Shown here: piece after piece, positions 4,365 through 9,121 of the stretch
How positions within the stretch are numbered: position 1 is the stretch's first letter
How the letters are laid out: each line of letters starts with the position of its first letter
Assembly: GCA_937925895.1 (NCBI GenBank)
Contig: CALANC010000244.1
Span: forward strand, 1-9,223
Direction: 5' to 3'
DNA length: 9,223 bases
DNA from: an uncultured Desulfobacterales bacterium
GTDB lineage: Bacteria > Desulfobacterota > Desulfobacteria > Desulfobacterales > UBA11574
The notes under the pieces: generated by a model
The model's input: the letters and a program-made list of their open reading frames with translations, nothing else
Told to the model about the DNA's origin: nothing
Database searches by the model: none
Translations under genes and position numbers: made by a program

Positions 4365-4403
4365 AAAATCCCGTGAGCGATGATATGCCACGGGATTTTT
4401 TTT
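4365..4403 (+). terminator. Intrinsic terminator of grpE-dnaK
   Basis: AAAATCCCGTG at 4365-4375 pairs perfectly with CACGGGATTTT at 4389-4399 over 11 base pairs, with a 13-base loop and a T tract continuing to 4403. It begins 21 bases after the dnaK stop and separates the heat-shock operon from the protease genes. Confidence 0.93.
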
Positions 4404-4436
4404 GAAGAATTTTTCGATAAGCAGGTTTTGTCTATG

Positions 4437-4465
4437 TTGACAAGTTTCGGCACGGGTGCTAAATT
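4437..4465 (+). promoter_or_regulatory. Probable promoter of the HtrA-like gene pair
   Basis: A perfect TTGACA at 4437-4442 is followed after the optimal 17 bases by TAAATT at 4460-4465 (4 of 6 matches). The site lies between the dnaK terminator and the first protease gene, with a leader of about 33 bases. No obvious sigma-E-like motif is seen. Confidence 0.5.
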
Positions 4466-4504: not shown

Positions 4505-6058
4505 ATGTTTTCAATGTCTGTACCATTAAAAAGTAATGGGGTTGTGTTGTACCTGAAGCTTGGCTTGATTTTTCTTTTCCTGTTCACCTTGAATGCAAAA
4601 ACCCTCCAAGCAGCAAAACCCATACCTACACGAATTAGAAACAGCGTTGTTAAGATACGCGTCATCTCTCAAGCTCCAGACTATGCGGAGCCTTGGAATC
4701 CAGGTCCAATAACACAGGGATCCGGCACGGGTTTTGTTATTTCAGGTAAACAGATATTAACCAATGCACACATATCAAGTAATGCGCGGTTCATCGCAGT
4801 GGAAAAGGAGGGCGATTCTAGGCAGTATGAAGCAAGGATAAAGTTTATTGGCCATGACTGTGATCTTGCTATCCTTGAAGTACTCGACGATTCGTTTCTA
4901 AATGACTTGACACCTCTGTCATTCGGCAATGTGCCGTCTTTAAACTCGACCGTAACCGTTATCGGTTACCCCATTGGAGGCAAGCGTTTATCGGTAACAC
5001 GCGGTGTGGTTTCTAGAATTGATTACCAGGTATATTCCCACTCTTCAGCGGATAGCCACTTGGCAATTCAAATTGATGCGGCCATCAACCCGGGAAATAG
5101 CGGTGGCCCGGTATTACAGGACAATGTCGTTGTAGGAGTAGCGTTTCAGGCCTATCGCAGGAATGTCGCTCAGAATGTAGGATACATGATTCCTGTTACT
5201 GTAATCGAACGGTTCTTAAAAGATTTGGAAGACGGACAATATGACCGTTATGTTGATCTTGGCCTATATTCGTTCCCACTCATCAACGGTGCCCATCGCC
5301 GAGCGATTGGGCTTAAACCGGACGATTATGGAGTAATGGTCAGCGGCGTTCTCTCTGTTGGAGCAGCGGCGGGTACGCTAAAGGCGGGTGATGTGTTGCT
5401 TTCCATTCAAGGTTTCCCCATAGATAGTAACGGATATGTTGAAATGGACGGCAGGCGCATCCTTATGGCCGAGGTTGTTGAACGCAAATTCAAAGGCGAT
5501 AAAGTTAAGTTGAAAATCCTTCGTAATCGAAAAGAAATGGAAGTTACCGTTGCACTAAAAATTCCCTGGCCTTACTTAATGCAGGCACGTCGACATGATG
5601 TCGAACCACGATTTGTTCTTGTCGGCGGCTTGCTTTTCCAACCGCTTTCCTTTGGCTTTATGAATTCAAGAAATACCAAGGACATCAATCTTCTCTACCA
5701 TTATTCTCTTTTCCTTGAAAATGAACTTTATCTTGACAAACCGGAGATAGTTGTTCTCAGTAAAATACTGCCGGATCCCATCAACGCTTACTTGAACAGC
5801 TTCGTCAACTCGATTGTTCTTAAAATTAACAATAAAAAGATAAAAACTTTGGCTGATGTATCGACAGCATTCAAAGCGCCCGTCGATTATTATGTCATCC
5901 AACTTATGAGCAAAGAGCGTCCCGTTGTTCTGGAACGCCGCGAGATCATAAAGGCCAGGAAACGCATCTTACGCAGATACAATGTTTTAAAAGAAGAACA
6001 TCTGGGCGATTCCATTGTTCCTGACGATTTCCTGCAATCATCCGCCCATTTAAATTGA
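4505..6058 (+). CDS. HtrA/Deg-like periplasmic serine protease with PDZ and PDZ-like C-terminal domains
   Basis: This is a secreted trypsin-fold (S1C) protease expected to degrade misfolded periplasmic proteins. An N-terminal hydrophobic segment (about 13-30) ends in LQA (34-36), a plausible signal peptidase I site. The catalytic triad is complete: H89 in LTNAHIS, D120 in CDLAILEV and S199 in NPGNSGGPV. GSGTGFVIS (72-80) and the GYPIGG loop (154-159) are typical of Deg proteases. A PDZ domain spans about 250-350 (GTLKAGDVLLSIQG at 290-303). The C-terminal 366-480 region (FVLVGGLLFQPLS, IVVLSKILPD, VLKINNKKIKTLADV) resembles the second PDZ-like domain of plant Deg2/Deg9-type proteases rather than the PDZ2 of E. 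coli DegP. Length is 517 residues. The ribosome site before the ATG is weak; the ATG at 4514 (M4) is an alternative start. It is followed after 13 bases by a paralogue lacking the triad. The specific substrate is unknown. Confidence 0.92.
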   Translation: MFSMSVPLKSNGVVLYLKLGLIFLFLFTLNAKTLQAAKPIPTRIRNSVVKIRVISQAPDYAEPWNPGPITQGSGTGFVISGKQILTNAHISSNARFIAVEKEGDSRQYEARIKFIGHDCDLAILEVLDDSFLNDLTPLSFGNVPSLNSTVTVIGYPIGGKRLSVTRGVVSRIDYQVYSHSSADSHLAIQIDAAINPGNSGGPVLQDNVVVGVAFQAYRRNVAQNVGYMIPVTVIERFLKDLEDGQYDRYVDLGLYSFPLINGAHRRAIGLKPDDYGVMVSGVLSVGAAAGTLKAGDVLLSIQGFPIDSNGYVEMDGRRILMAEVVERKFKGDKVKLKILRNRKEMEVTVALKIPWPYLMQARRHDVEPRFVLVGGLLFQPLSFGFMNSRNTKDINLLYHYSLFLENELYLDKPEIVVLSKILPDPINAYLNSFVNSIVLKINNKKIKTLADVSTAFKAPVDYYVIQLMSKERPVVLERREIIKARKRILRRYNVLKEEHLGDSIVPDDFLQSSAHLN

Positions 6059-6071
6059 CGGATTTCATCTG

Positions 6072-7619
6072 ATGACTTTAGCACTACCTCAAAAACAACA
6101 TCTGAAATTCTCTCATATCTCTGCCCGTTTTATCACCGTAATAATTCTATGGTGTTTACTGTTTCCAAGCTGTCATGTGGCTCAAATAGGGCCATCCGAA
6201 AAAAAAATTAACGTACAACCGAATCAACCGGTGATCCGTATCAAGATCACAAGGCAAGGCTACAATTTCCACCGTCCCTGGCAACGGAGAGCGTCTTCTA
6301 CGCATACCGCCATCGGTGTGGTAATTGAAGGGCCGCGAGTGTTGGTGACGTCCAGGTTTCTGGCAGACAATAGATACATTGAGCTGGAAAGAGTGGACAA
6401 TAGAAAAAAAAGCGGGGCAAAAATTGAGGTAATCGATTACGAGACGAACCTTGCCGTTCTGCAACCGATTCATCCTCGATTTCTGGAAAATATTCAACCC
6501 CTGAAACTGACAACCGATGCCTTTCAGGGAGATCAATTGGCTGTCTGGCAGGTGAATCCTAACGGTGGTGTTACACCTGCTTTGGGTACGATAACCTCCA
6601 TCGAACTCACTCGTTATCCTTTTAGTGACTACTTTCTAACCTATCGTTTAAACAGCTCGCTACAGTATCGATTCAATAACTTTACCCTCCCTGTGGTCAA
6701 AAACGATAAACTTGCAGGGCTTCTTATGCGATATGATTCCAAGGCCCAAACAATTGATGTGATTGCTGCACCGGTTATTGAAAATTTTATAAAAGATGCA
6801 GTCGACGGTAATTATTTAGGATTTCCCATGTCCGGTATAAAAATCGCCCCCACCGAAGACCCTCAGCTCAGACGATATGTGGGTATTGCTGGAAAACCCG
6901 GTGGAGTTTACGTGGAGAAGGTCATAAAAAACAGCGCCGCTGAGAGAGCAGGCATACGAAAAGGGGATATTATTATGGAAATCGCCGGATTTGGTCTCGA
7001 TAGCCGCGGCAATTATGATCATCCCATTTATGGAAAAGTATCTCTGTCACATTTGATCCGTTGTGAATATTACGTGGGAAACAGCATCACTTTCAGGATC
7101 TTCCGCACAGGAAAGGAATTCACTGTCGATGTGATTTTAGACCACATACAGCCGGAAGATTATCTGGTTCCTCCTTACATCGTTGACAAAGCGCCACGTT
7201 ATTATATTCTGGGCGGCTTGGTCTTCCAGGAGCTTTCCGGTACTTACCTTAGAGAATACGGCAAGGAATGGTCGGCAAAAGCCCCTGTGCACTTGGCATA
7301 CTACCTGGCCAATCAGGACAACTTTGCGTATGACGGCAGGGAAAAAATCGTTTTTCTCTCCAGAGTCTTACCCACATCATACACCATCGGATACAATGAG
7401 CTTTCCCACCTGGTAATTAAACGCATAAACAACAAAGATATCTTCAAGCTTGACGATATACCCCCGGCATTGGAAAATCCAAAAAATGGTTTTCATAAAC
7501 TTGAATTTGAACAACGACCTAAAGTAATTTATATTGATACACTTGAAATTCCGAAAATCAACAAACAAATCCGGGAAAGATATAATCTGCCCGCTTTGAA
7601 GAATATGGGTCCCCGTTAA
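6072..7619 (+). CDS. Catalytically dead HtrA/Deg-like paralogue (pseudoprotease) with PDZ domains
   Basis: This 515-residue protein aligns along its length with the preceding protease but has lost the active site. H89 corresponds to R95 (VTSRFLAD), D120 to N126 (ETNLAVL) and S199 to F204 (FNNFTLPVV, where the NPGNSGGP motif is gone). The rest of the domain order is kept: protease-like fold to about residue 245, PDZ at about 268-357 (AGIRKGDIIMEIAGFGLDS at 293-311), and the C-terminal PDZ-like domain at 375-493 (YYILGGLVFQELS, IVFLSRVLPTSYTIGY, VIKRINNKDIFKLDD). Both proteins end with a related R-Y-N-hydrophobic tail. The N-terminus has a hydrophobic segment ending LLFPSC, so C33 might be lipidated, although Phe at -3 is not canonical. 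The frame is intact over 515 codons with conservative changes, arguing for a selected non-proteolytic role such as regulator, scaffold or chaperone, not decay. It starts 13 bases after the upstream stop with no good SD, suggesting translational coupling. Confidence 0.88.
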   Translation: MTLALPQKQHLKFSHISARFITVIILWCLLFPSCHVAQIGPSEKKINVQPNQPVIRIKITRQGYNFHRPWQRRASSTHTAIGVVIEGPRVLVTSRFLADNRYIELERVDNRKKSGAKIEVIDYETNLAVLQPIHPRFLENIQPLKLTTDAFQGDQLAVWQVNPNGGVTPALGTITSIELTRYPFSDYFLTYRLNSSLQYRFNNFTLPVVKNDKLAGLLMRYDSKAQTIDVIAAPVIENFIKDAVDGNYLGFPMSGIKIAPTEDPQLRRYVGIAGKPGGVYVEKVIKNSAAERAGIRKGDIIMEIAGFGLDSRGNYDHPIYGKVSLSHLIRCEYYVGNSITFRIFRTGKEFTVDVILDHIQPEDYLVPPYIVDKAPRYYILGGLVFQELSGTYLREYGKEWSAKAPVHLAYYLANQDNFAYDGREKIVFLSRVLPTSYTIGYNELSHLVIKRINNKDIFKLDDIPPALENPKNGFHKLEFEQRPKVIYIDTLEIPKINKQIRERYNLPALKNMGPR

Positions 7620-7694: not shown

Positions 7695-7724
7695 TTGACA
7701 CGGGTTTAAAAAGAATCATATAAT
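7695..7724 (+). promoter_or_regulatory. Near-consensus sigma-70 promoter of the LysM gene
   Basis: TTGACA at 7695-7700 and TATAAT at 7719-7724 are both perfect and are separated by 18 bases. Transcription should start near 7731, leaving a leader of about 140 bases before the LysM start codon. This is the strongest promoter visible in the window. Confidence 0.8.
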
Positions 7725-8581: not shown

Positions 8582-8668
8582 GCCGGAGTGGTGAAATTGG
8601 TAGACGCACGGGACTCAAAATCCCGCGGGGGCGACCCCATCTCGGTTCGATTCCGAGCTCCGGCACCA
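8582..8668 (+). tRNA. tRNA-Leu (anticodon CAA)
   Basis: This is a class II tRNA of 87 nt with encoded CCA. The acceptor stem GCCGGAG (8582-8588) pairs with CTCCGGC (8658-8664), followed by discriminator A and CCA at 8666-8668. The anticodon stem CGGGA/TCCCG (8609-8613 and 8621-8625) encloses the loop CTCAAAA, giving anticodon CAA at 8616-8618, which reads UUG leucine codons. The extended variable arm (GGGG-CGA-CCCC) is diagnostic of the Leu/Ser/Tyr class, and the T arm CTCGG-TTCGATT-CCGAG is regular. The integrase fragment just downstream, pointing towards the tRNA 3' end, suggests that this end served as an attachment site. Confidence 0.97.
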
Positions 8669-8716: not shown

Positions 8717-8774
8717 TTAGGCATTGAGCCGGATAGGAGCGTTGAAATGCAGTAATGGTAAGTGTTAGGCATTG
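8717..8774. repeat. 10-base direct repeat TTAGGCATTG flanking the integrase 3' end
   Basis: TTAGGCATTG occurs at 8717-8726, right after the tRNA terminator, and at 8765-8774, where it overlaps the stop codon of the integrase fragment. It is short enough to be chance, but its position at the supposed island edge makes it a possible scar of recombination. Confidence 0.3.
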
Positions 8775-9121
8775 GTTATAGATTCTCTCTTTTCGTTCAA
8801 GTCGGTGACTGTCACCAAGTTTGTAACTATTTGGGATTTGAGATAAGTCTCTTGTTTCTGTGAAGCAAGTTTCAAATCTGTATCGTTTACAATGTTGTAT
8901 CGGTCAAAAACAGACCGTGTTTTATGCCCTGAAATCATCATTGCCACTCTCTCGGGTATTCCAGACCGTACCATGTTTCTAACGGCGGCTCTGCGAAAGT
9001 CATGGAACAACCTTTTGCCGATTTTAGCATCTTTGCAAGCTGTATCCCATGAGCACCTGAAGTCTCTAATCTTGCCTTCCCCGCCTATACTCGGGAAAAC
9101 ATATGGTATCAATCTCCGTTC
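8765..9121 (-). pseudogene. Tyrosine recombinase (phage-type integrase), C-terminal fragment
   Basis: The minus-strand frame encodes the C-terminal catalytic part of a tyrosine site-specific recombinase. Counting from the TTG at 9112, it shows [14 protein letters not shown] with H37 and R40 (the HxxR motif), [10 protein letters not shown] with H63, and Y72 in FDRYNIV, the expected nucleophile. Full integrases of this type are roughly 350-400 residues; here only about 115 remain. The N-terminal DNA-binding domains, the first catalytic Arg and the beta-sheet Lys are missing, and an in-frame TAA at 9122-9124 closes the frame upstream. It therefore cannot recombine by itself and is best read as a remnant, unless it is an assembly artefact. 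Its 3' end is about 97 bases from the tRNA-Leu, the usual arrangement for an island integrated into a tRNA gene. Confidence 0.85.

Follow-up and report, generated by a model that had tools for sequence, protein, structure and literature searches.

Why should a bacterium keep, directly behind the gene of an HtrA/Deg protease, a second full-length gene of the same family whose product has lost its catalytic residues? The question is posed by two neighbouring genes in a 9,223-nucleotide stretch of DNA (the window) from an uncultured Desulfobacterales bacterium (assembly GCA_937925895.1, contig CALANC010000244.1). A dismantled copy that is kept beside a live one over two phyla must do something that is selected for, and there is strong evidence that the dead copy has a function and that this function is bound up with the live copy. 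The two proteins are called A (ORF1) and B (ORF2), and the same letters are used for their relatives. As initially annotated, the frames are adjacent and full-length. Both are intact, with 517 and 515 amino acids, respectively. The features of the pair are listed below (the limits of the degenerate domain of B were set by alignment to A).

4437..4465, + strand: promoter-like site TTGACA-17-TAAATT, 5' of ORF1 (consensus match only)
4505..6058, + strand: ORF1 (A), predicted active HtrA/Deg protease, 517 amino acids, signal-peptide-like start (frame intact)
4724..5140, + strand: Trypsin_2 domain of A with H89 (4769-4771), D120 (4862-4864) and S199 (5099-5101) (Pfam and alignment)
5306..5557, + strand: PDZ_2 domain of A (Pfam)
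5588..5992, + strand: C-terminal PDZ_3 domain of A, PF17815 (Pfam)
6059..6071, + strand: intergenic gap of 13 nt between ORF1 and ORF2 (ORF positions)
6072..7619, + strand: ORF2 (B), triad-less paralogue (pseudoprotease), 515 amino acids (frame intact)
6171..6173, + strand: Cys34 of B in a lipobox-like motif, likely lipid-anchor site (near-invariant column, 33 relatives)
6309..6806, + strand: degenerate protease domain of B with R95 (6354-6356), N126 (6447-6449) and F204 (6681-6683) (alignment)
6858..7133, + strand: PDZ_2 domain of B (Pfam)
7167..7595, + strand: C-terminal PDZ_3 domain of B, PF17815 (Pfam)

The 13-nt gap, together with the short or overlapping gaps that are the rule in relatives, suggests that ORF1 and ORF2 form one operon. 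A hairpin followed by a T run was seen by eye 3' of dnaK at about 4366-4404 (it is absent from the motif scan), and transcription of the pair is therefore likely separate from that of grpE-dnaK. The promoter-like site at 4437-4465 is weak evidence, as the region contains 12 such matches against 7.9 ± 2.9 in shuffled sequences. A perfect sigma-70 consensus, TTGACA-18-TATAAT, is located 3' of ORF2 at 7695-7724 (+ strand), 5' of a LysM/coiled-coil gene. The window also carries a tRNA-Leu(CAA) gene (8582-8668, + strand) adjoined by a short tyrosine-recombinase-like frame (8765-9112, - strand; PF00589), possibly the edge or a remnant of an integrated element, and a frame for a small DUF3568-domain protein (631-1026, - strand), whose end overlaps a TilS-like frame.

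A and B are about 25% identical. A has a complete His-Asp-Ser triad and a GNSGGP motif in a trypsin-like domain, with a PDZ domain C-terminal to it (Pfam), as is characteristic of S1C proteases, and is predicted to be an active HtrA/Deg protease. In B the S1C triad is replaced by R95/N126/F204, and no Pfam trypsin model matched at E ≤ 0.001. Both proteins scored above the Pfam cut-off for PF17815 and have the protease-PDZ-PDZ_3 layout of the Deg2/Deg9 type. Arabidopsis Deg2 and Deg9 (4fln, 5il9) were the closest solved structures by sequence for both (best E 1.4e-77 for ORF1 and 9e-38 for ORF2) and the nearest by fold as well; B is predicted by computation to keep the family fold. The domain layout said to be shared by the two paralogues was found for PDZ_2 and PDZ_3. 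It did not extend to the signal region, where B has a lipobox-like Cys and A an ordinary start, signal-peptide-like as judged by eye. The Cys34 column is near-invariant in 33 relatives. If this Cys carries a lipid, as is likely, B would hold an assembly of the two proteins at a membrane in Desulfobacterota. The lipobox pattern was present in 13 of 18 Desulfobacterota B proteins versus 2 of 62 from Verrucomicrobiota, and for this reason a lipid anchor was rejected as a general trait of B.

In the alignment the triad positions are occupied by H89/D120/S199 (ORF1) and R95/N126/F204 (ORF2), in full agreement with the first proposal. A complete triad was found in 136 of 136 A proteins, in 26 of 26 single relatives and in none of 143 B proteins (counted without proteins shorter than about 400-450 amino acids, the low-scoring singles L019-L021 and second copies). 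Among the 143, His is kept in two, Asp in five and the aligned Ser in one, all three in none. A further set of loci gave HDS in all 70 A- or C-type proteins and a full triad in 0/65 B. The NPGNSGGP motif, noted as missing from the second protein, was not found in its relatives either: G[NDS]SGG occurred in no B examined (0/94, 0/65 and 0/120), as opposed to 87/87 A (94 and 87 count some loci twice). In the triad alignment relative to the window some loci are likewise counted twice (e.g. L009/L044 and L038/L119), and three A proteins are too short for H and D. Neither was a triad present at shifted positions, an outcome that had been considered at the outset: no homologue examined had a full triad, and between residues 50 and 245 of 71 B proteins no Ser or Cys was more than 80% conserved. 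The sole widely conserved His of B (column 238, 99%) is located just past the barrel, and it is Asn in ORF2 of the window. One B protein (L179:3033-4571, + strand) reads H-D-E, with His and Asp kept and Glu at the Ser column; this may be a relic of the first steps in the loss of the triad, or it may have arisen later.

Though triad-less, B was shown to be under purifying selection, as had been presumed from its intact frame. The median dN/dS (Nei-Gojobori) was 0.072 for B, far below 1, and 0.085 for A in 87 locus pairs with dS < 1.2 in both genes, taken from the 2,485 pairs of 71 loci with A longer than 400 amino acids; the 87 pairs overlap, and their disjoint subset comprises 23. Over all 2,485 locus pairs B diverges faster than A (slope 1.44). 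At E ≤ 1e-10 ORF2 had 662 homologues, and PF13365 was absent from the precomputed domains of the best 120 of the 662.

Conserved adjacency in relatives had been set beforehand as a test of the idea, and adjacency was what we found. Named genome contigs were scanned for B relatives and the best 80 of 402 loci were kept, 18 from Desulfobacterota and 62 from Verrucomicrobiota as labelled in the records. In 76 of the 77 assessable loci among these best 80, A lies 5' of B on the same strand (recognised in 74, fragmentary in L081 and L116); in the other three (L043, L070 and L115) B is at a contig end. At L042 there is no A within 4.1 kb upstream of B, and A is found elsewhere in the genome. The gap, measured from longest-ORF starts, was within -145 to +108 nt in 73 of 74 loci and within -3 to +5 nt in 44; at L106 the genes are about 2.5 kb apart. 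Whole-genome search of 14 genomes from the best-80 loci detected A in 13. In the exception, G489, whose B (L070) is at a contig end, no A was found at E ≤ 1e-60, perhaps due to draft incompleteness. The module seems to consist of two genes, as the 18 widest clusters of neighbours within 6 kb revealed no third conserved gene. The five widest clusters are confined to Verrucomicrobiota; the two phyla have in common an antisense frame that overlaps the pair (15 loci) and a single cluster of 5 loci. A convergent Pup-ligase-like gene lies about 1.6 kb from the start of B in 32 of the best 80 loci, in Verrucomicrobiota; L094, where the domain was tested, has a PF03136 match in this gene (8332-9837, - strand).

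Both Desulfobacterota and Verrucomicrobiota have the pair, with the two genes almost always adjacent. Among 192 genomes of the window's class, A-type (at least 787 bits) and B-type proteins (at least 700 bits) were present in the same 13, the window genome included. They are linked in 11 and on different contigs in G451 and G416 (one family), where the available flanks lack the partner gene. When 297 genomes from the phylum of the window were searched with ORF2, there was one further clear B outside the class sample, in G033 (the L044 record), with A adjoining; the next-best matches were single proteases, HDS wherever readable. Of 288 Verrucomicrobiota genomes, 64 had A matches that scored 470 bits or more. 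B was detected at E ≤ 1e-90 in 34 genomes, all of them within these 64; in the other 30, B adjoins A in 28 (two cut by the contig end) and the contig stops at A in two. B was thus seen in 62 of the 64 strong-A genomes, the remaining two being cut by the contig end. Linkage was observed in 58 of the 62, and G705, G733, G744 and G747 have the genes apart, so that six genomes with G416 and G451 carry both genes unlinked. Weaker A matches (364-438 bits) occurred in 41 Verrucomicrobiota genomes; among eight examined, B adjoined in three (L225, L229 and L231) and not in five. We also considered whether the pair and single C-type proteases exclude each other, but make no such claim: at the thresholds used 0 of the 192 genomes had both, but about one was expected by chance, and G629 (Verrucomicrobiota) has A plus a weaker second match.

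In quick trees on chosen rows, A and B formed one clade each, with support of 100 and 100 (72 rows) and 96 and 100 (94 rows). The single C proteases were one clade in the 94-row tree (98) and not in the 72-row tree (2 changes), owing to L020, a row with a long branch. In the 94-row tree the Desulfobacterota branch was nested among the Verrucomicrobiota rows for A and for B alike. It joined the same six rows in both parts (L056, L058, L106, L117, L161 and L162; support 98 each), and the simplest account is that the two genes were transferred together. A and B distances correlated at 0.966 over 71 loci. In a control with 29 Verrucomicrobiota loci, the A-B correlation was 0.884 versus 0.720 and 0.800 with the neighbouring Pup-ligase-like gene; as this is only somewhat above the control, the mirror-tree evidence adds little.

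From co-occurrence, gene coupling, retention of both genes when apart and joint transfer we infer that the joint presence of A and B reflects functional dependence, which may well be physical. HtrA proteins work as oligomers, and the proteases of the family are usually described as homo-oligomers. The simplest form of dependence would therefore be a mixed A-B oligomer, the favoured mode among those proposed. In such an assembly A would supply the cutting sites, while B would provide barrel contacts and PDZ/PDZ_3 surfaces, either gating A or delivering substrates. On the sequence evidence we consider it probable, if only just, that B serves A in the cell envelope as an obligate subunit or regulator without catalytic activity, likely in a mixed oligomer. 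Several observations count against this: the genome of L070 (G489) without A; the lack of a fused A-B protein among the best 120 of 391 matches to a joined query (longest 839 amino acids, best coverage 53%; the 7,990 candidates with the most words in common were scored); the A-B distance correlation, which exceeds its neighbouring-gene control only somewhat; and the MamE/MamO precedent, in which the two proteins were not found to interact and activation required a TauE domain, which Pfam does not find in B.

B could instead be a separate PDZ chaperone or substrate receptor of the envelope that passes clients to A without a stable mixed oligomer. Its intact PDZ_2 and PDZ_3 and the likely lipid anchor in Desulfobacterota would suit such a role, and the retention of both genes when unlinked is explained by a loose partnership, too. 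However, the dead barrel of B shows no less conservation between the phyla than the PDZ domains do (mean identity 0.45 versus 0.37 and 0.41), beyond the needs of a mere PDZ carrier, which favours a structural role of the barrel. The tight coupling of the genes also speaks against a loose partnership, and we regard this alternative as doubtful. A dedicated inhibitor or decoy, restraining A until stress frees it, would fit co-expression from one operon and the fixed pairing. An enzyme with an inhibitor should at times be found alone, but there was no clear case of A without B in the 64 strong-A Verrucomicrobiota genomes, and neither the sequence nor the model gave any sign that A is occluded; such a role for B appears improbable. 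Still less credible is an unrelated job of B, such as metal binding, with mere co-inheritance with A. MamO offers a precedent (PMC4794232), but no conserved His pair was noted in the protease domain of B (conservation across 71 B), and mere linkage fails to explain the co-occurrence where both genes are retained unlinked. Decay of B as a pseudogene copy of A accounts for the loss of catalytic residues and for nothing else, and it can practically be dismissed because it is contradicted by a B dN/dS of 0.18 or less in 20 of the 23 disjoint close pairs (0.25, 0.42 and 0.54 in the other three, where A has 0.15, 0.34 and 0.53), by the 662 homologues and by the maintenance of B over two phyla.

On a broader view, the pair may be one example of a heteromeric HtrA protease that is widespread. 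Every catalytic subunit in the clade would be bound to a dead one dedicated to it, so that bacteria would have a two-gene equivalent of plant Deg7. Such a protease would have become fixed early in Verrucomicrobiota, Akkermansia among them, would have reached Desulfobacterota as a unit and would be standard equipment for envelope quality control in these bacteria. This broader proposal is tentative. Carriers of the pair likely include the human gut bacterium Akkermansia muciniphila, with whose type strain ATCC BAA-835 we identify G603 with good confidence. On contig 1 of G603 the A match spans 786.8-788.2 kb and the B match 788.4-789.8 kb; the triad columns of this locus (L185, G603 C1:785400-792900) read HDS in A and N-N-A in B. 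This B has a weak Trypsin_2 match (44 bits), and annotation may therefore label the dead protein a serine protease. Close relatives of the G603 B type (query from L183) represent clusters of 803 and 1,272 sequences. L113, from a record labelled Akkermansia muciniphila (perhaps loosely), has a B type different from that of G603. If G603 is the type strain, the question of the pair can be tested in a cultured human gut bacterium.

The initial annotation knew of no described two-gene system of this kind, a claim that does not hold in view of MamE/MamO and, in fused form, Deg7. PMC4794232 states that the inactive HtrA protein MamO is required for MamE-dependent proteolysis and its TauE domain for activation, and that a physical interaction between MamE and MamO was not detected. 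Like the window pair, MamE/MamO consists of an active and an inactive protein of the HtrA type, and there the inactive one is needed for proteolysis that depends on the active one. MamO differs in having a TauE-like transporter domain, in binding metal and in its setting, magnetosome formation. ORF1 and ORF2 carry PDZ_3 instead, and no TauE-like domain was found in ORF2 by Pfam at E ≤ 0.001. The MamE/MamO family models gave 76 and 29.4 bits with ORF1 and 18.1 bits (MamE) with ORF2, far below the cut-offs of 800. In plant Deg7 an active and a degenerate unit are fused, and the inactive domain is reported to join in trimerisation (PMC3473262). The window pair has the same two units in series, but they are encoded by two bacterial ORFs, unlike the single fused eukaryotic polypeptide of about 1,000 amino acids. 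Yeast Nma111/Ynm3, which likewise has an active HtrA unit in tandem with a degenerate one, differs in the same way. Deg2 and Deg9 (4fln, 5il9) share the protease-PDZ-PDZ_3 layout but are active single genes; to our knowledge they have no dedicated dead partner. In Clostridioides difficile, too, an active protease, CspB, is partnered by pseudoproteases related to it, CspA/CspC, but these belong to the subtilisin family, have an unrelated fold and act in spore germination. The words inactive, degenerate and pseudoprotease are absent from a survey of microbial PDZ proteins (PMC6411480). No paper dedicated to the A-B pair was recognised among the open-licence papers listed, which is no proof of its absence from print. 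Because neither the scores of MamE/MamO nor the fused architecture of Deg7 was found, the pair is filed as a two-gene active/dead HtrA module, distinct from both and of a kind already known; it offers a natural setting in which to study the control of an active enzyme by its pseudoenzyme twin.
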